From Amycolatopsis thermophila (lineage in GTDB: Bacteria > Actinomycetota > Actinomycetes > Mycobacteriales > Pseudonocardiaceae), in assembly GCF_030814215.1 (NCBI RefSeq), contig NZ_JAUSUT010000001.1, forward strand, positions 2,480,001-2,544,000: a stretch of 64,000 nucleotides of DNA, in the 5' to 3' direction. The notes beneath the pieces are model-generated. The model was given only the letters and a program-made list of their open reading frames with translations. It was not told the origin of the DNA and made no database searches. Below are positions 2,430-40,471 of this stretch, piece by piece. Positions within the stretch are counted from its first letter, which is position 1. Every line of letters starts with the position of its first letter. A program made the translations under genes and the position numbers.

Positions 2430-2860
2430 TGCGTTCCTGGTGGCTGGGGTGAGCTGAGCAGGGGTTCGGCAGGTCGGTGGCTGTGGTGGGTGGGGTTTGC
2501 CGGGCCTGGTGGCTGCGGTGAGCGGGCACTGTTGGGCCGGGGCCAGGTGTTGCCGGGGCCAGGGGCCATGTGGTGGGGGTTTGTTGGGCCGGGTGGCCGC
2601 GGTGAGCGGCGTTTGTTGGGGCCGGGGTCCCCGGTGGCGGCGGTTTGTTAGGGCCGGGGTCCCCGGTGGCGGGGATGCCAGGCCGGTGCCCTTGGTGAGC
2701 GGGCGCTTGCTGGGCCAGGGCAAGGGCTTTGCCGGGTCTGGCAGCTGAGGGGGAGGGTTTGCCGGCCGGGGCAAGGGGTTCGCCATGGCCTGGTGGCCGC
2801 GGTGGGTGGGGATTGCCGGGCACCGGTGCTTTCCCGGCGGGTAAGGCCTGACGCTCCGGT
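2430..2860. repeat. Degenerate G-rich repeat block, unit about 32-38 bases
   Basis: About nine diverged units with approximate consensus CCnGGTGGCnGCGG followed by TGAGCGGGnTTTGnTGGGCC. The clearest pair is GGGCCGGGGTCCCCGGTGGC at about 2620-2637 and again at about 2652-2670. G greatly exceeds C on the plus strand. Frames that stay open here are repeat artefacts of GC-rich DNA; I see no gene. Confidence 0.6.
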
Positions 2861-2924
2861 GGCTCGGCTGAGCTGGGTTCGGCGCATGGGCAGGTGGCGC
2901 GCGTTCATCGTTGGACCAGTGACG

Positions 2925-3345
2925 CGTCGGTGATAGGACCAGTGGTGCGGTTGCCGGTGGTGGCCGCGCGAAGGGACCGGTGGCGGCTGTGCGAATGGGC
3001 TGATGGTGGCCGCGCGAACGGACGGGTGGCCGCTGCGCGAATGGGCCGATGGTGGCCGCGCGAAGGGACCGGTGGCGGCCGGCGCGAGCGGATCGGTGGC
3101 GGCTGTGCGAACGGACCGGTCGCGGCTGCGCGAGTGGGCGGCTGGTTGGCGTGTGGATGGACCGCTGGCGCCTGTGCGCGTGGGCCGCTGGTAGCCGTGC
3201 CGGCTGACCGCTGGCGGCGTGGTGCACGAGCGGGCCAACCATCTGGCGGTGGGTGGAGCGCTGGTGGTGCGGCGACGGGCCGACGGTGAGGTTCGCCGAT
3301 GGGTCAGTGGCGCGTGCATGAGCGGACCACTGATGTCGCGGCGAC
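2925..3345. repeat. Degenerate tandem array, unit 22-24 bases
   Basis: About 16 units close to GTGGCGGCTGCGCGAA followed by CGGACCG. Good copies are near 2945-3080, where GGTGGCCGCGCGAACGGAC, GGTGGCCGCGCGAAGGGACC and GGTGGCGGCTGTGCGAACGG occur in succession. Units diverge further toward 3345. The core GAACGGACCG recurs in the array at 50.2-50.6 kb. The array has no unique spacers and no cas genes nearby, so it is not CRISPR. No gene is visible between 2351 and 4009. Confidence 0.6.
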
Positions 3346-3554
3346 CGGACCAGCGACCCGGGTGCACGACTCGACCAACGACGCCGCGGCGGGTGGCGCA
3401 CCGGCGCGCATGAGGGGAGCGCTCGGCTCCACACCACATCGACCAGTCGCGCCATGACCCGACCCACCCCCTGTGCCCAAGAAGCACCCGAGCAAGCCCA
3501 CCCCAGCGCTCACAAGAAGCACCCGAACGGCCCAGCGCTGGTGCCGGCTGCGGA

Positions 3555-3850
3555 GGCTGCGGTGCCCGCAACACCCGCCCGCGGGCACGCCCGCGTGCCG
3601 CCGGGTCGCCCGCGAGCCGCCCGCCGCCGCGCCCGCGGCTCGCCCGCCGGGTGCCCGCGTGCCGCCCGCCAGCGCGCTCGCGAGCCGCCCGCGACTCGCC
3701 GCCAGGCGCCCGCCACCCGCCTGCCGGCGCGCCCGCCACCCGCCCGCCGAGCCGCCTGCGAGCGGCCCGCGACTCACCCGCCGGCACGCCCGCGTGCCGC
3801 CCGCCGAGCCGCCAACCACCAGCCCGCTGGCGCGCCCGCCACCCGCCCGC
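3555..3850. repeat. C-rich low-complexity repeat block
   Basis: A block dominated on the plus strand by GCCCGCGTGCCGCCCGCC-like words (three good copies near 3585, 3650 and 3790) and by CGCGAGCCGCCCGC. C greatly exceeds G here, the reverse of the block at 2430-3345. Nothing in it looks like a real gene. Confidence 0.55.
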
Positions 3851-3865
3851 CCCACACCTAAAACC

Positions 3866-3979
3866 AGTTGCCTATGGCAACTAAAGTGTCCTCGACCACA
3901 GAGCGGGTTATTTGAGTGGCGCAACCAACTAGTCAGGGTGCATCCTTGACAAGAGCAAGTAGTTGCTTCGGTCAAATAA
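3866..3979 (+). promoter_or_regulatory. Probable MarR operator region of the marR-MFS-yceI operon
   Basis: Three symmetric elements lie within 145 bases of the marR start. AGTTGCC-tat-GGCAACT (3866-3882) is a 7-base inverted repeat of MarR size. TTATTTGA at 3909-3916 and TCAAATAA at 3972-3979 form a perfect 8-base inverted pair 55 bases apart. Between them GCAACCAACTAGT and AAGTAGTTGC repeat the CAACT/AGTTG half-site. The interval is also locally AT-rich, as expected of a promoter. Autoregulation by the adjacent MarR protein is inferred. Confidence 0.6.
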
Positions 3980-4009
3980 GACATCCCGCACGAAGAGAGT
4001 GATCCGGCC

Positions 4010-4534
4010 ATGCCATCTCCCGTCGAGGAAGCGGCCTTCACGGACACCGAGCTCGACATCGCCGACGAGCTGGGCGTTCAGCTCGTGCGCTTCATGCGAC
4101 TGCTCACCAAGGCCAAGTCCCAGGTCGCCAAGCTCGGACCGGACGGGATCGAACGGGCCGCCTACGCGATCCTGTTCCAGCTCATCCACGACGGGCCTCA
4201 GCGCACCAGCAAGCTGGCCGAGGCGCTGCACTCCGAGATCTCCACGATCAGCAGGCAGAGCAGCGCGCTGGTGCAGCACGGCCTCGTCGAGCGCCTGGCC
4301 GACCCGGAGGACGGGCGCGCCTGCCTGCTGGCCCCGACCGCGGAGGGCATGCGGGTGTTCGAGGAGAACCGCAAGCAGCGCAACCGCTGGCTGGCGGAGG
4401 TCCTCGCCGAATGGCCGGAGGACGAACGCCGGGTCCTGAACAAGCTCCTGGACCGGCTCAACACGGGGATCGAACGACACGCTCCACACCTCGCCGACCA
4501 GGTCTCGGCGCGCATCAAGGGGGACAACGCATGA
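4010..4534 (+). CDS. MarR family transcriptional regulator
   Basis: A 174-residue winged-helix repressor of the MarR family. The helix-turn-helix region (about 60-90) reads RTSKLAEALHSEISTISRQSSALVQHGLVER, followed by the wing DPEDGRACLLAPT. MarR proteins bind short palindromes as dimers and release DNA on binding phenolic or lipophilic ligands. The stop overlaps the ATG of the exporter gene (ATGA at 4531-4534), so the two are translationally coupled and the exporter is the obvious target. A diverged paralogue with the same kind of partner lies at 39905-40399. Confidence 0.9.
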   Translation: MPSPVEEAAFTDTELDIADELGVQLVRFMRLLTKAKSQVAKLGPDGIERAAYAILFQLIHDGPQRTSKLAEALHSEISTISRQSSALVQHGLVERLADPEDGRACLLAPTAEGMRVFEENRKQRNRWLAEVLAEWPEDERRVLNKLLDRLNTGIERHAPHLADQVSARIKGDNA

Positions 4535-7164
4535 CACGCTCCACAAGACAACAACCGGTGCCCGCGGGGGGCGCCGTCGCGGACGAGGGTCCGCGCCTGA
4601 GCCACAAGCAGATCCTGACCATCCTCAGCGGACTCCTGCTGGGGATGTTCCTGGCGGCGCTGGACCAGAACATCGTCAGCGTCGCGATCGTGAAGATCGC
4701 CAACGACCTGCACGGCTTCGACCAGCAGGCGTGGGCGACCACGGCGTACCTGATCACCGCGACCATCGCGACCCCGCTGTACGGCAAGCTGTCCGACATC
4801 TACGGGCGCAAGCCGTTCTACCTGATGGCGATCGCGCTGTTCGTGATCGGCTCGGCCGCCTGCACGTTCGCCACCTCGATGTACGAGCTGGCCGCGTTCC
4901 GCGCCTTCCAGGGCCTGGGCGCCGGTGGTCTGATGTCGCTGGCGATGACGATCATCGGTGACGTGGTGCCCGCCCGCGAGCGGGTCAAGTACCAGGGCTA
5001 CTTCATGATGGTCTTCGGCAGCGCGACCGTGCTCGGCCCGGTGCTGGGCGGCCTGTTCTCCGGGTTCGAGAGCCTGGGCGGTCTCGACGGGTGGCGCTGG
5101 ATCTTCCTGATCAACGTGCCGATCGGCGCCCTCGCGCTCGCGGTCGTCGCCAAGGTGCTCAACGTGCCGCACCAGCGGCAGAACCACCGCATCGACTGGT
5201 TCGGCGCGGTCTCACTGGCCATCGCGGTGGTGCCGCTGCTGCTGGTCGCCGAGCAGGGCCGCACCTGGGGCTGGGGCTCCACGACCGCGGTGATCTGCTA
5301 CGCCGTCGCGGCGTTCGGCGCGGTGCTGTTCCTCTTCGTCGAGTACGTGATGAAGGACGAGGCGCTGATCCCGCTGCGGCTGTTCCGCAACTCGACGTTC
5401 AGCGTCGCGATCGGCGGCGGGACCCTCGTCGGTATCGGCATGTTCGGCTCGATCAGCATGATCCCGCTGTACTTCCAGGTCGTGCGGGGTTACTCGCCGA
5501 CCCAGGCCGGCCTGCTGATGTTGCCGCTGGTGCTGGGCATCATGACCGGCTCCCAGATCTCGGGCCGCATCACCGCGAAGACCGGGCACTACAAGATCCT
5601 GCCGGTCATCGGCACGGTCCTGATCGCCGGCGGTGCCGCGATCTACGCCCAGGTGCACTACGACAGCCCGCTGTGGCAGCCGCTGCTGATCGCGCTGCTC
5701 ATCGGCCTGGGCCTGGGTGGCTGCATGCAGACGCTGATCATCGCCGCGCAGAACGCCGGCCCGCGCCGGGACATGGGCGTGTCGACGGCGTCGGCGACGT
5801 TCTTCCGGCAGATGGGCGGCACGCTGGGTGTCGCGGTCTTCCTGACCATCCTGTTCAACCTGCTGCCGGGCAAGATCGCCGGCGCGTTCGGCGGCCGCCT
5901 GCCGCAGGGCTTCGACCAGAGCCAGCTGGGCGCGCTGCAGGCCGACACCAGCAGCCTGCACAACCTGCCCGACGCGGTGCAGATCCCGATCCTGACCGGG
6001 TTCACCAACTCGATCCACGGGGTCTTCTACGTCGCCGGCGGCGTGGCGCTGCTCGCCGCGATCGTGCTGGCGTTCATGAAGGAGATCCCGCTGACCGGCG
6101 GGCCGGCCAAGCCGGCCCCGCCGATCGAGGGCGGCGAGGCACTGGTGCCGGTCGAGGACACGGCGAAGGCCATCGCGGAGGCCGACACCTGGGCGGACGC
6201 GGACGCCGCGTTCGCCGAGGACCGCGAACCCGTGCTTGTTGGTGGGAGGCATGCAGTGAGTGAAAACGGACACGGCGACTACCAGCTGGCCGCGCAGAGC
6301 GCGCCGATCACGAACGCGGTCGCGAGCGCCGGGACGGACAACGCGCTGGGCACCGGCGGTCAGCCGATCACCGGCACCATCCGCCGCCAGGACGGCACGC
6401 CCGTCGGCGGCGCCGCGCTGACCCTGATCGACCAGCGGGGCCGCCAGGTCTCGCGGGCGTCGGGCAGCGGCGACGGCGGCTACCGCATCGGCGCGCCGGG
6501 CAACGGCACCTACGTGCTGATCGTGTCGGCGGCCGGGCACCAGCCGCAGGCGGCCAGCGTGGTCGTCGCGGACGGGCCGGCGCGACTGGACCTCACGCTC
6601 GTCGGCTCGGGCGAGGTCAGCGGCGTGGTCCGGGTGGCGGGCAAGGGTTCCCCGCTCGCCGGTGCGACCGTGACGCTGACCGACGCGCGCGGTGAGGTCA
6701 CCGGCGCCGCGATCAGCAACGCCGAGGGCGTCTACGTGTTCAACGGGGTCAGCTCCGGCACCTACACGCTGGTCGCCAGCGCCGACCGGATGCGCCCGGT
6801 GGCCTCGCTGATCACCGTGCCGGACAGCGGTGTGCTGCACCAGGACGTCGAGATCGCACCGGCCGTGCTGCTGGCCGGCACCGCCCGCACCGACGGCGGC
6901 CGCCCGGTCCCGGACGCGCGGATCACGGTCCTCGACTCCGAGGGCAACGTCGCCGCGGTCGCCCGGACGGACGAGAACGGCCAGTACGTCGTCAGCGACC
7001 TCCCGGAGGGTGACTACACCGTGGTCGCCAGCGGGTACCCGCCGGCGACGAGCCAGGTGAACCTGCCGGGTGGCGGCGACGTCAGCCACGACGTGCGGCT
7101 GGGCTACGAGCAGGTGCTCGACCAGCTGGGCGACCCGGCGAAGAACGGGGTGGAGCACTCATGA
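4531..7164 (+). CDS. DHA2-type MFS exporter with three C-terminal carboxypeptidase-regulatory-like domains
   Basis: 877 residues. Residues 1-515 form a drug:H+ antiporter of the DHA2/EmrB-QacA type, usually 14 membrane helices, with motif A GKLSDIYGRKPFY and motif C GPVLGGLF. A linker follows (about 515-608), then three carboxypeptidase-regulatory-like (prealbumin/Cna-B-like) beta-sandwich repeats at about 610-690, 692-775 and 780-870. Each has the pattern G-x-(V/A)-P-x-x-(A/G)-x-(V/I)-T-(L/V), then DENGQYVVSDLPEGDYTVVA. Ordinary DHA2 exporters end near residue 500-550, so the tail is an added module. With 14 helices the tail should be cytosolic, whereas such domains are usually secreted. The gene is coupled by ATGA to marR upstream and yceI downstream. 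A possible internal start at 6256 would release the tail alone. Substrate unknown. Confidence 0.85.
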   Translation: MTRSTRQQPVPAGGAVADEGPRLSHKQILTILSGLLLGMFLAALDQNIVSVAIVKIANDLHGFDQQAWATTAYLITATIATPLYGKLSDIYGRKPFYLMAIALFVIGSAACTFATSMYELAAFRAFQGLGAGGLMSLAMTIIGDVVPARERVKYQGYFMMVFGSATVLGPVLGGLFSGFESLGGLDGWRWIFLINVPIGALALAVVAKVLNVPHQRQNHRIDWFGAVSLAIAVVPLLLVAEQGRTWGWGSTTAVICYAVAAFGAVLFLFVEYVMKDEALIPLRLFRNSTFSVAIGGGTLVGIGMFGSISMIPLYFQVVRGYSPTQAGLLMLPLVLGIMTGSQISGRITAKTGHYKILPVIGTVLIAGGAAIYAQVHYDSPLWQPLLIALLIGLGLGGCMQTLIIAAQNAGPRRDMGVSTASATFFRQMGGTLGVAVFLTILFNLLPGKIAGAFGGRLPQGFDQSQLGALQADTSSLHNLPDAVQIPILTGFTNSIHGVFYVAGGVALLAAIVLAFMKEIPLTGGPAKPAPPIEGGEALVPVEDTAKAIAEADTWADADAAFAEDREPVLVGGRHAVSENGHGDYQLAAQSAPITNAVASAGTDNALGTGGQPITGTIRRQDGTPVGGAALTLIDQRGRQVSRASGSGDGGYRIGAPGNGTYVLIVSAAGHQPQAASVVVADGPARLDLTLVGSGEVSGVVRVAGKGSPLAGATVTLTDARGEVTGAAISNAEGVYVFNGVSSGTYTLVASADRMRPVASLITVPDSGVLHQDVEIAPAVLLAGTARTDGGRPVPDARITVLDSEGNVAAVARTDENGQYVVSDLPEGDYTVVASGYPPATSQVNLPGGGDVSHDVRLGYEQVLDQLGDPAKNGVEHS
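6243..6258 (+). promoter_or_regulatory. Possible internal ribosome binding site and in-frame GTG start
   Basis: TGGGAGG at 6243-6249 stands 6 bases before GTG at 6256-6258, which is in frame with the exporter (codon 576) and begins MSENGHGDYQL. Initiation here would give a soluble protein of 302 residues made only of the linker and the three beta-sandwich domains. The sequence is seen; use of the site is inference. Confidence 0.4.
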
Positions 7165-7982
7165 GCGGGTTGCGTGCGCAGATCCGCACGGCCGAGGGCT
7201 GGGCGGTGGAGAACGCGGTTCTGACGGTGACCGACATGAGCGGCCAGCAGGTCGCCCGTGCGGTCGCGGACGCCACGGGCGCGGTGGCCACGCCACCGCT
7301 CCCGCCCGGCGTCTACACGGCGGTCCTCACCGCCGCCGGGCACAGCCCCCTGGCGCGGACCGCGCAGATCGGGTCGGACGGGTCGGGGTCGCTCGGCGAC
7401 CTGGTGGTGACGCCGATGGCCGGTGCCGTCGAGCTGCCGCCCGCCGGGCCGTGGACGATCGACCCGGTGCACTCGAGCGCGGTCGCGACCGCCCGGCACC
7501 TCGGGATCGCGAGCATCAAGGCGCGGTTCTCCGACATCAGCGGCCGCATCGAGGTGGCGCGGCCCGCCGAGCAGTCGCGGGTCGAGGCCGAGATCAAGGC
7601 CGCGAGCATCGACACCGGCATCAAGATGCGCGACGACCACCTGCGGTCGCCGGAGTTCCTGGACGTCGAGTCCTACCCGGTGATCGGGTTCCGCAGCACC
7701 GGGATGCGGCAGCGCGGCACCGACACCTGGGTGCTGGCCGGCGAGCTGACGCTGCACGGTGAGCGCAAGCCGATCGAGATGGACCTGACCTACGGCGGCT
7801 ACGGACCGGACCCGTGGGGTGGCGTGCGCGCCGCGTTCCACGCGGAAACGCAGCTGCACCGGAACGATTTCGCGATCAACTACAACGCGATGGTGCGGGC
7901 CGGGGTCGCCGCGATCGGATCGACGGTGAAGATCGAACTCGACATCGAGGCCGTTCAGGGCGAATCACTGCCCCAGATGTGA
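7161..7982 (+). CDS. YceI family protein with N-terminal carboxypeptidase-regulatory-like domain
   Basis: 273 residues in two parts. Residues 1-75 are a fourth copy of the beta-sandwich domain found in the upstream exporter ([19 protein letters not shown], then LPPGVYTAVLTAAGHSP). Residues about 97-265 are a YceI domain, a lipocalin-like barrel known to hold polyisoprenoid lipids (WTIDPVHSSAVATARHLGI, RMRDD-like HLRSPEFLDVESYP, LTLHGERKPIEM). YceI proteins are often periplasmic, but this one has no signal peptide. The ATG overlaps the stop of the exporter (ATGA), so it is the third gene of a coupled operon, and a strong hairpin follows 11 bases after its stop. Sharing a domain with the exporter tail suggests that the two touch or handle the same lipophilic ligand (inference). 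Confidence 0.85.
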   Translation: MSGLRAQIRTAEGWAVENAVLTVTDMSGQQVARAVADATGAVATPPLPPGVYTAVLTAAGHSPLARTAQIGSDGSGSLGDLVVTPMAGAVELPPAGPWTIDPVHSSAVATARHLGIASIKARFSDISGRIEVARPAEQSRVEAEIKAASIDTGIKMRDDHLRSPEFLDVESYPVIGFRSTGMRQRGTDTWVLAGELTLHGERKPIEMDLTYGGYGPDPWGGVRAAFHAETQLHRNDFAINYNAMVRAGVAAIGSTVKIELDIEAVQGESLPQM

Positions 7983-7993
7983 AAAAACCGGAC

Positions 7994-8029
7994 CGCGGCC
8001 GTGCTCCTTTTCGTGAGGGCACGGCCGCG
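7994..8029 (+). terminator. Hairpin terminator of the marR-MFS-yceI operon
   Basis: Perfect 11-base stem CGCGGCCGTGC / GCACGGCCGCG with a 14-base loop, starting 11 bases after the YceI stop. No long T-tract follows, which is common in high-GC actinobacteria. Confidence 0.7.
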
Positions 8030-8100
8030 TTCGGTAACAGATCACCTCGATTACGTCGATCGGCTGACCGGTCGTTGCGTGCGGCACGTACGCTTTCCGG

Positions 8101-8785: not shown

Positions 8786-9128
8786 TGTACTTGGCCAGGA
8801 CGTTGGTGGCGGTTGGGCTGGGTTGACGTGGGGAGGGCCTCCGGTTGGGGTGTGGCTTGTCCAGGACCCACGCCAGGCCGGAGGCTGCGCCGCTTTCCTG
8901 CAGCGGGCGATCGCCTCCTTCGCTGATCGCGGCATCACTCGGATCCAGCGGTTGATGACCGACAACGCCTGGGCCTGCCGCTGGTCACTCCGGCCAATCT
9001 GTGCCGAGCACGGCATCCGACAGACGTTCATCAAGCCCCACTGCCCCTGCCAAACCGGCAAAGTCGAAAGCTGCAACGGCGGCCACCCACCTACCAGCCG
9101 CCTGCCACCAACCTGATGGCCGAGTACA
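8786..9128 (+). mobile_element. Internally deleted IS481-family element with target duplication
   Basis: The left end TGTACTTGGCCA (8786-8797) and right end TGGCCGAGTACA (9117-9128) are inverted repeats with one mismatch. Both are flanked by the direct repeat CCTAGG (8780-8785 and 9129-9134), which fits the NCTAGN target known for IS481. The left 100 bases closely match the left end of the element at 32459, including the hairpin arms GCCTCCGG (8837-8844) and CCGGAGGC (8878-8885). Most of the transposase gene is missing, leaving 343 bases. It cannot move by itself but may be mobilisable in trans. Confidence 0.85.
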
Positions 9129-37565: not shown

Positions 37566-39908
37566 TCAGCGGGTGGGGTGCGTCAGCTCCACGTCGCGGG
37601 ACAGCGGGGTTCCGGCGATCACCTCCAGCGGCGCGGCCACTGGCGCGTATCCGCTGGTCACGAGGGTGTAGTCGCCCGCGGGGAGGTCGGTGAAGGAGTA
37701 CCGGCCCTCCTCGTCGGTCAGGGTCGTCGCGACCACCTCACCGGCCGGGTCGAGCAGGGTCACCTGAGCCTCGGCCACCGGCCGGTCCTCGCGGCCCGCC
37801 CGGACGACCCCGGCCAGGCGGGCGGTCCGCACCAGCTCGACGTCGTGCGTGGCCTGTTCGCCCTCGGTGGTCACCAGCGGTGTCGCGGAGGGCTGGTGGC
37901 CGGCCGCCGTGACGGTCAGGGTGTGAACCCCGCCCCCCACGTCGTCGAAGTGGTACCAGCCGTCGCCGCCGGTGATGCTCGACGCGACCACCTCGCCGCG
38001 CTCGTCGGTCAGCACGAGCGTCGCCCCGCCGACCGGCTGCCCGCCCGCGGTCCGGACCACGCCGCTCAGCCCACCGGCGCCGGCCATCTCGACGTCCCGC
38101 CGCACCGGCTTGCCGTTGAGCGTCACCATCACCGCACTCGGCTGGAACGACCCGGCGGAGGTGATCAACAGGTAGCTCGCGTTCGACGGCGCGGGCAGCC
38201 GGTAGCTGCCGTCCGCGGCGGTGAGTGCCCGCGCGACCTGCTGGCCCGACGTGTCGGTGAGCGTCACCGCGACACCGGCGAGGGGGCGGCCCGACGGGCC
38301 GGTCACCACGCCGTGCACGGCCGAACCGGTGACCGGACCCGGGACCCCAGCCGGCGCGGCCTCGGCGTTCTCGCTGGTCAGGTCGATGCTGCGGCGCAGC
38401 GGCACGTCCTTGATGAACAGCACCGCGATCAGCGTGACCACCGCGATGATGCCGCCGGCGAAGAACACCGAGCCGATGCTGTCGCCGTAGGCGGCGCGCA
38501 CGATCGACTGGAACGGCTCCGGCAGCGCGCCCAGGTTCAGGCTGCCGCCGCCGGTCGGCGCCGAACCGGCGTTGATGCCCAACGCGGACAACGCACTGGT
38601 CACGTGGCTGCTGACCTTCGCGGCGAGCAGGGCGCCCAGCGCGGAGACACCGGCCGAACCACCCAGCGTGCGGAAGAACGTCACCGACGACGACGAGGAC
38701 CCCATGTCCTTCATCGCGACGGTGTTCTGCACGACCAGCACGAGGTTCTGCATCAGCGCACCGACACCGATGCCCAGCAGGGCCAGGTAGATGCCCATCA
38801 GCACCAGGTTCGTGTGGTGGTCGATGGTGCTCAGCAGGAACAGGCTGGCCACCAGCAGGATCGCGCCGCCGACCATCCACGGCTTGGTCCGGCCGGTGCG
38901 CGAGATGAACTGCCCGGCGATCGTCGAGGAGAGGAACAGGCCGAGCATCATCGGGATCGTCATCAGGCCGGCGTGCGTCGGCGAGTACCCGCGGGCCAGC
39001 TGGTAGTACTGCCCGAGGAACACCGCGCCACCGAACATCGCGGTGCCGACCGACAGGCTCCCGATGATGGCGAGCGTGAAGGTGCGGTTGCGGAACAGGC
39101 GCAGCGGCACCACCGGGGCGGACACCTTGGTCTCGACGAACACCGCCAGCGCCAGCGCGGCCACGCCGCCCGCCACGTAGCACAGCGTCGACCACGACCA
39201 CCAGGCGAAGCTGCCGCCCGCCAGCGAGACCCAGATCAGCAGCAGCGACACGCCGCCCACGAGCAGGGTCGCGCCCAGCCAGTCGATCTTCACCTTCTGC
39301 TTGAAGACCGGCAGGTGCAGGGTCTTGCCCAGGACGATGAACGCGACCACCGCGACCGGGACCGTGATCCAGAAGTTCCAGCGCCAGCCCAGCGGAGAGT
39401 CGACGATCAGGCCACCGAGCAGTGGGCCGGCGACCGTAGCCAGCGCCATGACCGCGCCGATGTAACCGCTGTAGCGGCCGCGGTCACGCGGCGAGATCAT
39501 CGCCGCGATGACGACCTGGACCAGCGCCTGCATGCCACCGAGGCCCAGGCCCTGAACCGCGCGGAACGCGATCAGCTCGGGCATGGACTGCGAGATGCCG
39601 CCGAGCACCGAGCCGAGCGTGAAGATCACGATCGACAGCTGGTACAGCATCTTCTTGCTGAACAGGTCCGACAGCTTCCCCCAGATCGGGGTGCTCGCCG
39701 TGGACGCCAACAGGGTGGCGGTGACCACCCACGTGTACTGACTCTGCGAGCCGTTGAGGTCGGCCAGGATCGTCGGGAGTGCGTTCGAGACGATCGTGGA
39801 CGACAGCATGGCGACCAGCAGCGCCAGAAGGAGGCCGATGAAGGCGCGCCCGACCTGGCGCGGCGTCATCGCCTCCTGGTTCGCTGTCGTGCTCACTTCG
39901 GGGATCAC
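37566..39908 (-). CDS. DHA2-type MFS exporter with three C-terminal carboxypeptidase-regulatory-like domains (second copy)
   Basis: 780 residues, same plan as the protein at 4531. Residues about 1-505 form a DHA2 exporter (motif [34 protein letters not shown], motif C GPLLGGLI). Three beta-sandwich repeats follow at about 530-610, 613-693 and 696-778, starting [40 protein letters not shown] and [23 protein letters not shown] at 39908 overlaps the marR stop (GTGA); GTG at 39896 is an alternative. There is no YceI partner here. Its tail repeats are as close to those of the first exporter as that protein's repeats are to one another, suggesting duplication of the whole cassette. Substrate unknown. 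Confidence 0.85.
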
Positions 39909-40399
39909 TTCCTCTTCTCCGCCGGTTCCGGCGGGCAGGTGACCGGCGCTTGCCCGAGGGCCTCGCGCAGTCCTTCGTTCATCAGGGTCAGCCGGGCGGT
40001 GAGCGACTCGATCTCGTCGTCGGTCCAGTCCGCCAGTGCGCGTTGCATGAAGGCGACGTGCAGCTCGCGCCAGCGTTCGAGCTCGGCGCGGCCCGCGTCG
40101 GACAGGCTGATCAGGCTGGCGCGCCCGTCCTCGGGCGCGGGCCTGCGGCTGACGAGGCCGGCGGCGGTCAGCTGGGCGATCTGCCTGCTGATCACGGAGA
40201 CGTCGACCATCTTGCGTTTCGCCATGTCCGACGGACGGCTCTCGCCGTGCACGTTGAGGTCGGACAGCAGCATGGCGGCCGCGGGGTGCAGACCGTCGTG
40301 CTCGCGCTGCCACGACTGGTTGATCCAGGCGTGCTGCAGCTGCCCGGCCGTGCGCAGCTCGCGCATCAGTTCAACGGCCTTCTCGTCGCAGTCCCCCAT
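39905..40399 (-). CDS. MarR family regulator (second copy)
   Basis: A 164-residue MarR protein; helix-turn-helix [20 protein letters not shown] with [14 protein letters not shown] (about 55-88) and wing [16 protein letters not shown] at 40399 is chosen because GGAGGTG lies just upstream; a TTG 20 codons earlier would run through the operator. It is coupled to the exporter gene downstream. CAACT/AGTTG half-sites in its own promoter also occur upstream of the first marR, so the two repressors may recognise related DNA. Confidence 0.88.
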
Positions 40400-40424
40400 G
40401 GACCCACCTCCCGGTTGGTTGTCA

Positions 40425-40471
40425 CATACAACTATAACGCGGGTAGTTGTATGCCACAACTATCTAAGTTG
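40425..40471. promoter_or_regulatory. MarR operators of the second marR-MFS operon
   Basis: CATACAACTA (40425-40434) and TAGTTGTATG (40444-40453) are perfect 10-base inverted arms, 9 bases apart. Next to them CAACT-atcta-AGTTG (40457-40471) forms a second symmetric site. Both lie within 75 bases of the marR start in an AT-rich island. Confidence 0.8.

Follow-up and report, generated by a model that had tools for sequence, protein, structure and literature searches.

A marR-exporter-yceI cassette of actinomycetes with shared prealbumin-like domains, an apparently exchangeable pump and a putative lipocalin dock

The cassette and its predicted architecture

Amycolatopsis thermophila (RefSeq assembly GCF_030814215.1) carries, within a stretch of 64,000 nucleotides of contig NZ_JAUSUT010000001.1 (positions 2,480,001 to 2,544,000; here the window, whose numbering is used throughout unless a locus is named), three genes joined by ATGA overlaps at 4531-4534 (marR/exporter) and 7161-7164 (exporter/yceI). 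They encode a MarR-family regulator, an exporter of the major facilitator superfamily (MFS) whose membrane part is followed by a tail of carboxypeptidase-regulatory-like domains (CPD; CarboxypepD_reg, PF13620; three in a row are written CPDx3), and a YceI lipocalin headed by a further CPD. Coordinates and Pfam matches agree with the first-pass annotation of this DNA, which had read three overlapping genes with three CPDs on the exporter. The parts of the cassette are as follows.

4010..4534, + strand: MarR-family regulator, 174 aa (ATG at 4010, TGA at 4534; PF01047 at 51 bits, cut-off 24.6)
4531..7164, + strand: DHA2 exporter with CPDx3 tail, 877 aa (ATG at 4531, TGA at 7164; TIGR00711 at 253.3 bits, cut-off 230.2)
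4603..6072, + strand: pump part of the exporter, residues 25-514, 14 long helices (AlphaFold2 model with motif and charge analysis)
6100..6357, + strand: low-confidence, probably disordered linker, residues 524-609, with exchange breakpoints nearby (AlphaFold2 model, sliding identity)
6358..7104, + strand: three-domain CPD (prealbumin-like) tail, residues 610-858, predicted to be cytosolic (Pfam, AlphaFold2 model)
7161..7982, + strand: CPD-YceI protein, 273 aa (ATG at 7161, TGA at 7982; Pfam, model and fold match)
7170..7412, + strand: N-terminal CPD domain of CPD-YceI (near-cut-off Pfam score, homologues, AlphaFold2 model)
7452..7952, + strand: YceI lipocalin-like barrel, residues 98-264 (Pfam; closest solved folds 1wub, 1y0g and 7bwl)

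The exporter belongs to the 14-helix DHA2 family by its TIGR00711 score, its modelled helix count and the motif A (GKLSDIYGRK, residue 85) in the loop between helices 2 and 3. Pfam adds MFS_1 at 185.8 bits and CarboxypepD_reg at 136.5 bits over three stretches, above the cut-off. The AlphaFold2 model (mean pLDDT 79.7), whose closest solved folds are EmrB and EfpA, shows 14 long helices up to residue 514, as counted from its secondary structure, and then, beyond the linker, three beta domains; lysine and arginine are richer in predicted inner than in predicted outer loops in 33 of 33 aligned exporters. Because of the 14 helices, the position of motif A in the 2-3 loop and this positive-inside bias, the tail is predicted to lie in the cytosol.

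The YceI model PF04264 matches the third protein at 142.7 bits (cut-off 23.7), and its barrel gives TM-scores, normalised by target length, of 0.84-0.89 on 1wub, 1y0g and 7bwl. The domain ahead of the barrel scores 32.1 bits against a Pfam cut-off of 32.3 for CPD, the equivalent domain on the genome's second CPD-YceI protein reaches 36.1 bits and so passes it, and the domain is present in 11 of 11 compared sequences, the window's own included. A separate beta domain stands at this position in the AlphaFold2 model of CPD-YceI, among whose weaker fold matches is the transthyretin-like domain of human carboxypeptidase D. Homologues and modelled fold together support a CPD at the start of the window's YceI protein, the fourth of the cassette, as had been read at first pass. 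The proposal that this domain derived from one particular domain of the tail is unsupported, its identity to each of the three being 32-35%.

Just three residues precede the CPD of the YceI protein and no hydrophobic start is visible. The signal-peptide call rests on 19-residue Kyte-Doolittle hydropathy rather than on a signal-peptide program, and the maximum so obtained for the window's protein is 1.07; among 83 compared cassettes, values above 1.6 occur in 10 of 83 CPD-YceI homologues and 7 of 83 tails, always within domains and never at the start. At some loci, moreover, stand-alone CPDx3 proteins that likewise have no hydrophobic start directly precede CPD-YceI. The first-pass annotation had placed a YceI protein free of a signal peptide in one compartment with the exporter tail; hydropathy upholds the former point, and both partners are predicted to share the cytosol, the prediction putting the tail inside rather than outside the cell.

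Recurrence of the pairing and exchange of the pump

The architecture recurs across actinomycetes beyond chance. Loci were named for the best 80 of 589 confirmed CPD-YceI relatives, a set biased to close relatives that spans Amycolatopsis, Prauserella, Nocardia, Streptomyces, Kutzneria, Actinomadura and others. In 73 of these 80, CPD-YceI is preceded on its own strand by a CPD-tailed exporter, at a distance of at most 356 bp in 71, the wider spacings being 545 bp in L087 and 1242 bp in L082, where marR and a soluble CPDx3 protein lie in between; a same-strand marR accompanies 65 of the 73. In three further named loci the frame that encodes the tail holds no pump (L113 and two loci at contig ends), and four have no tailed-exporter neighbour (L065-L067, L122). 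Approached from the other side, an MFS gene is found no more than 1.2 kb upstream of YceI in 80 loci, and in 79 of these the MFS protein bears a CPD tail; the exception is L113, whose tail stands in a separate frame. The order of genes is not entirely fixed, marR following yceI instead of preceding it in three genomes (L194-L196).

Two even samples, which share some genomes and each include the window's own, extend the comparison beyond close relatives. In the phylum sample (296 genomes, searched at E 1e-45), cassette-type CPD-YceI is found in 10 genomes, own included, all of which have CPDx3 directly upstream; a full-length tailed exporter lies within about 400 bp in nine of them, and the CPDx3 of the tenth runs off a contig end. 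The CPD-YceI matches of this sample that include the CPD part all fall in the window's class. In the class sample (148 genomes), 13 of 16 full-length tailed exporters among the matches listed adjoin CPD-YceI, own included, and many related exporters there match the pump part of the model only. The first-pass annotation had proposed a survey of co-occurrence, and the named loci and the phylum sample agree in showing the pairing conserved. Three batches of 20 family loci, fixed beforehand by match score and not meant as complete lists, show where the pairing ends: a CPDx3 neighbour is present at 19 of 20 loci of cassette-like CPD-YceI (41-59% identity), at 1 of 20 of a second CPD-YceI type (34-39%, plus the partial 50% match L152) and at 0 of 20 of plain YceI (matches without CPD), with L151 behaving like the second type and L152 like a cassette.

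Comparison of 83 cassettes (82 of 100 loci and the window; the 18 loci left out lacked a neighbouring tailed exporter, ran into a contig end, had split genes or contained frames whose length prevented parsing) indicates that the pump has been exchanged under this constant pair. The pump parts fall into six types with less than 45% mutual identity, comprising 55, 23, 2, 1, 1 and 1 members, and the best CPD-YceI tree requires at least seven changes of pump type. Identities of tail and YceI correlate at r 0.914 and those of pump and YceI at 0.707; pump and tail reach 0.819, though they belong to one protein. In a tail tree of 50 of the 83 cassettes and 12 further tails, Nocardia cassettes cluster together whichever of the two pump types they carry (support 100/99); L086, L087 and L091, whose pumps are the odd ones, have tails that fall among those of the Streptomyces type. 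Approximately unbiased (AU) tests on 38 cassettes reject the Nocardia cassettes as one clade on the pump tree (p 5e-45) and pump type 1 as one clade on the tail tree (p 3e-5).

The individual exchanges point the same way. Between the two pump types of Nocardia (56 pairs), mean identity is 34% for the pump and 28% for MarR; tail and YceI CPD both reach 64%, and the barrel 78%. When YceI identity is matched at 70-89%, MarR identity drops from 61-70% within a pump type to 27-28% across types; in this set marR is found with pump types 1 and 2 only. Two cassettes in a single strain of Streptacidiphilus fuscans share 41% identity in the pump, 82% in the tail and 98% in YceI, and in the pairs examined sliding identity rises stepwise near the linker. 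As judged from these comparisons, the pump is repeatedly exchanged, with breaks near the linker, and tail and CPD-YceI stay paired.

Several points weigh against this reading and against a functional bond between tail and YceI. Seven changes is the lowest count on a quickly built tree, and its well-supported branches by themselves force fewer, three for pump 1 and two for pump 2; of the six pump types, three are represented by one locus each; and the grouping of pumps used in the AU tests was chosen after the identities had been seen. A paralogous tailed exporter in the window stands without a YceI gene, as do three tailed exporters (G384, G288, G468) without an adjacent CPD-YceI among the matches listed for the class sample. 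The second CPD-YceI type (L013 3131-4009, - strand; L151, L153-L171; 34-41% identical) has no CPD-bearing neighbour, and clustering of 20 of its loci for a shared neighbour gave, beyond YceI itself, no cluster of more than 10 loci. For marR, lastly, the correlation over the 70 cassettes that have it is 0.940 with the tail and 0.931 with the pump. Because MarR thus correlates about equally with both over all pairs, the apparent joint move of marR and pump holds for the Nocardia exchange only.

The pump has also been lost in some lineages. CPDx3 is a separate protein directly upstream of CPD-YceI in 6 of the 20 cassette-like family loci (L132, L138, L145, L146, L148, L149), with no hydrophobic start except in L138, which retains a pump remnant; in L145, L146 and L149 no pump was seen upstream of CPDx3 within the stretch fetched. 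In the Kutzneria-type loci L082 and L132, the soluble CPDx3 groups with cassette tails at support that is not strong (88/92), and the more distant upstream exporter has a tail that groups with that of another exporter lacking YceI (100/100). Docking in trans onto a tailed exporter encoded elsewhere appears possible, since four genomes with pump-less cassettes (G050, G082, G042, G005) carry such an MFS exporter at another place. As tail and CPD-YceI also occur without an attached pump, passing a ligand to a pump within the same chain cannot be a general requirement.

At L113 (5940-7120) a long hairpin breaks the exporter and the tail then reads into CPD-YceI, through an assembly fault or recent damage. 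This locus was rejected as a natural fusion of tail and YceI, given the interrupting hairpin and a ribosome-binding-like sequence of the yceI start's own; the reading through into yceI has the look of a lost stop codon. The idea of modelling tail and YceI as one chain from this frame was dropped, the alignments having placed exporter tails on the CPD-YceI part.

Possible roles of the proposed dock and comparison with known systems

The account preferred here, held with somewhat better than even confidence, is that of a conserved actinomycete efflux cassette with a modular dock, in which the tail binds CPD-YceI and the pump is exchangeable. The three-domain tail would bind the CPD of the YceI protein and so tether the lipocalin to the membrane's inner face; the cytosolic lipocalin would bind a lipophile, be it a polyprenyl or quinone-like lipid or a lipophilic drug, and keep it soluble near the pump, which would export a substrate class of its own that is specific to the lineage. 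MarR would repress the operon from a palindromic operator and respond to the substrate of the pump, not to the ligand of YceI. Hand-over of the ligand from YceI to the pump is possible and is the most uncertain step. The docking site itself, which the first-pass annotation had suggested in the tail, is likely by prediction, and is favoured by exchange and loss of the pump beside a tail and CPD-YceI that remain paired.

That annotation had gone further and let CPD-YceI deliver its lipophilic ligand directly to the exporter, with MarR sensing the same ligand. The predicted shared compartment and the conserved pairing speak for such a delivery, as do the solved relatives of the pump, which by their PDB titles include EfpA with lipids and an Rv1410 homologue; yet closely similar YceI proteins adjoin pumps less than 45% identical, and tail and YceI occur without an attached pump, so that direct delivery is judged unlikely. 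Its regulatory half is weakened in particular, marR having gone with the pump and not with YceI in Nocardia. Exchange of the pump under a similar YceI argues for a broad YceI ligand or for a scavenging or anchoring role. A role in scavenging or membrane protection, in which CPD-YceI sequesters toxic lipophiles or oxidised lipids, the tail serves only as its anchor and the pump acts alongside, would suit pumps that are exchangeable and versions that lack them, and a PNPOx-fold gene accompanies 41 of the 80 named loci; that gene is not found in the window, however. The precedent for this role is the pair BcnA/LcoA, a YceI lipocalin with a membrane partner to which it is sometimes fused, but BcnA is a secreted protein with a cytochrome b561 as partner (PMC9113575). 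The scavenging role is ranked as rather unlikely, somewhat ahead of direct delivery.

Two further explanations would dispense with both transfer and scavenging. Tail and CPD-YceI might form a lipid-sensing gate or a stability factor for the exporter, as the long low-confidence linker between pump and tail and the many related exporters matching the pump part only (among the matches listed) would allow; a conserved tail on dissimilar pumps makes a specific gating contact less likely, and this regulatory role is considered quite unlikely. Alternatively, the neighbours might be inherited together by linkage, with CPDs as generic solubility modules and no docking at all. The end of the tail and yceI overlap or lie close together, CPD domains are widespread (11 of 14 control genomes have matches), and physical linkage alone would partly keep the adjacent tail and yceI together, which is a further point to be set against the dock. 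Linkage alone is nevertheless insufficient, because breaks inside the exporter gene spare the tail and because CPDx3 and CPD-YceI are retained after loss of the pump; the tail is also almost constant on exporters beside YceI, even though so many related exporters match the pump part only. Co-inheritance without docking is regarded as quite unlikely.

CPD domains are mostly thought of as extracytoplasmic, and E. coli YceI is periplasmic; the solved polyisoprenoid-binding proteins TT1927b and E. coli YceI (1wub, 1y0g) match the barrel of the cassette only and have no CPD. In mycobacteria, the DHA2 exporter P55 (Rv1410) is encoded in an operon with the lipid-binding carrier LprG, an outside-facing lipoprotein of another fold than YceI, whereas the carrier of the cassette is predicted to be cytosolic and shares CPD domains with its pump. 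The closest precedent is LcoA-BcnA, in which a YceI lipocalin and an inner-membrane protein are linked genetically, in some bacteria even as a fusion, and tethering to the membrane has been proposed (PMC9113575). The cassette differs in its predicted cytosolic YceI, its DHA2 partner and the shared CPD; the gene adjacent to the window's CPD-YceI, the only neighbour considered in this respect, farther genes not having been scanned, encodes an MFS protein and not a cytochrome b561. Control of an exporter by a MarR regulator, as in the cassette, is described in the part seen of PMC6905112 for the tetracycline exporters OtrB/Tcr3 and CtcR with OtrR/CtcS, but ctcS is divergent from ctcR and that part mentions no YceI neighbour. 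On the OtrB and Tcr3 models the cassette pump scores 443 and 424 bits, far below their cut-offs of 999 and 1000. A yceI gene has further been reported within sulfonamide-degradation clusters of actinobacteria (PMC6868719), a different setting.

A search of the open PMC library (full text; subscription papers and preprints not covered) found no description of the cassette, in line with the first-pass statement that no system of this layout was known; the component families are known, and the arrangement and its mosaic evolution appear undescribed. YceI proteins are widespread, and no partners of a cytosolic YceI were found described. The cassette offers a testable case of whether a bacterial exporter draws its substrate from a soluble carrier inside the cell, which, if true, would change the annotation of a group of exporters in antibiotic-producing bacteria, and it provides a natural example of grafting, with one kind of tail on dissimilar pumps.

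Regulation, wider use of the CPD and neighbouring genes

Three further features frame the operon, and two belong to the paralogous exporter.

3866..3882, no strand assigned: 17-bp palindrome AGTTGCCTATGGCAACT, probable operator of MarR, differing from the cross-species consensus AGTTGCCTNAGGCAACT at one position
3961..3977, no strand assigned: degenerate second operator-like site AGTTGCTTCGGTCAAAT, 2 mismatches to AGTTGC-n5-GCAACT
7987..8035, + strand: strong hairpin just 3' of yceI, possible transcript end (-42 kcal/mol, z -7.0; no T-run)
37566..39893, - strand: paralogous exporter with CPDx3 tail and no YceI beside it, pump type 1 (best identity 69%; start provisional)
39905..40459, - strand: marR directly upstream of the paralogous exporter (start provisional)

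Allowing up to 4 mismatches, the consensus AGTTGCCTNAGGCAACT has a match in front of marR in 64 of 73 cassettes, the window uncounted, as against 6 of 219 random segments from the same loci, a count that is not independent, the loci being related and the consensus drawn from few of them. The palindrome occurs with both common pump types and is a probable MarR operator. By analogy with CtcS, MarR more likely answers to the substrate of the pump than to the ligand of YceI; the inverted repeat bound by CtcS, a MarR protein that controls a related tetracycline exporter, is a different one, and tetracyclines release the regulator from it (PMC6905112). The operon likely ends after yceI at the hairpin, judging from its predicted stability; a consensus scan of the cassette did not list this hairpin as a terminator and listed no sigma-70-type promoter.

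The pump part of the paralogue has a mean identity of 56% to type 1, which is common in Streptomyces cassettes, and of 37% to type 2. Where its marR begins, at 40417 and 40445, there are palindrome-like AGTTGT-n5-ACAACT sites. In the genome of the window, 20 of 27 CPD matches fall on exporters, on genes directly beside exporters or on the YceI protein of the cassette, these 20 being distributed over the cassette, the paralogue and the loci L014, L016, L015 and L019. L014 (3159-6793, - strand) encodes an MFS exporter with three CPDs followed by a separate soluble CPDx3 frame without a hydrophobic start, as judged by eye; it is a parallel pairing of exporter and CPDx3 without YceI. L016 has an MFS gene beside CPD domains at a contig end, L015 an MFS protein with two CPDs and L019 an ABC-2-like membrane protein with one. 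In L149, one MFS and two DUF1275 membrane proteins each end in a single CPD-like domain, all three below the Pfam cut-off, and L148 is arranged alike, judged by CPD and size. The single-CPD proteins of L148 and L149 share one gene group, which adjoins the CPDx3/CPD-YceI pair. It may tentatively be proposed, as a possibility well short of even, that the CPD is a general cytosolic plug-and-socket of actinomycetes, joining exporters (DHA2, and single-CPD DUF1275 and ABC-2-like proteins), free CPDx3 proteins and CPD-headed lipocalins, with pump and regulator as an exchangeable cartridge on a constant lipocalin dock, a cytosolic carrier-exporter machine of undescribed type.

Clustering of the 100 loci for extra cassette genes gave, besides marR, four neighbour clusters present in 25-36 loci, namely a PNPOx-fold, a TetR-type, a sigma factor and a YkcB-like gene. 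The distance to yceI is at most 1.5 kb for the PNPOx-fold gene in 19 of 25 loci and for the TetR-type gene in 15 of 30; the sigma factor and YkcB-like genes are mostly distant from yceI. The PNPOx fold often binds flavin or F420. The 41 named loci in which direct search finds it include Streptomyces among L085-L131, many with the gene directly downstream of yceI on the same strand, and, among L055-L060, several Amycolatopsis as well as Prauserella, with the gene divergent before marR. The same search found none in the window and none in the 20 cassette-like family loci L132-L151, and one weak match in the plain-YceI locus L180. From this distribution, the gene may be an extra part of the Streptomyces version.

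Within the window, the stretch 2570-3851 upstream of the cassette consists of imperfect GC-rich tandem repeats with periods of 11, 23, 34, 46, 57 and others, and is open in several frames with no clear gene. A VTT gene lies downstream of the cassette and has relatives in 10 of the 100 loci. Between it and a short-chain dehydrogenase gene, at 8800-9120 (+ strand), stands a frame with no Pfam match that contains the stretch TDNAWACRWSLRPICAEHGIRQTFIKPHCPCQTGKVES, which is presumably integrase-like and perhaps an insertion-sequence remnant.

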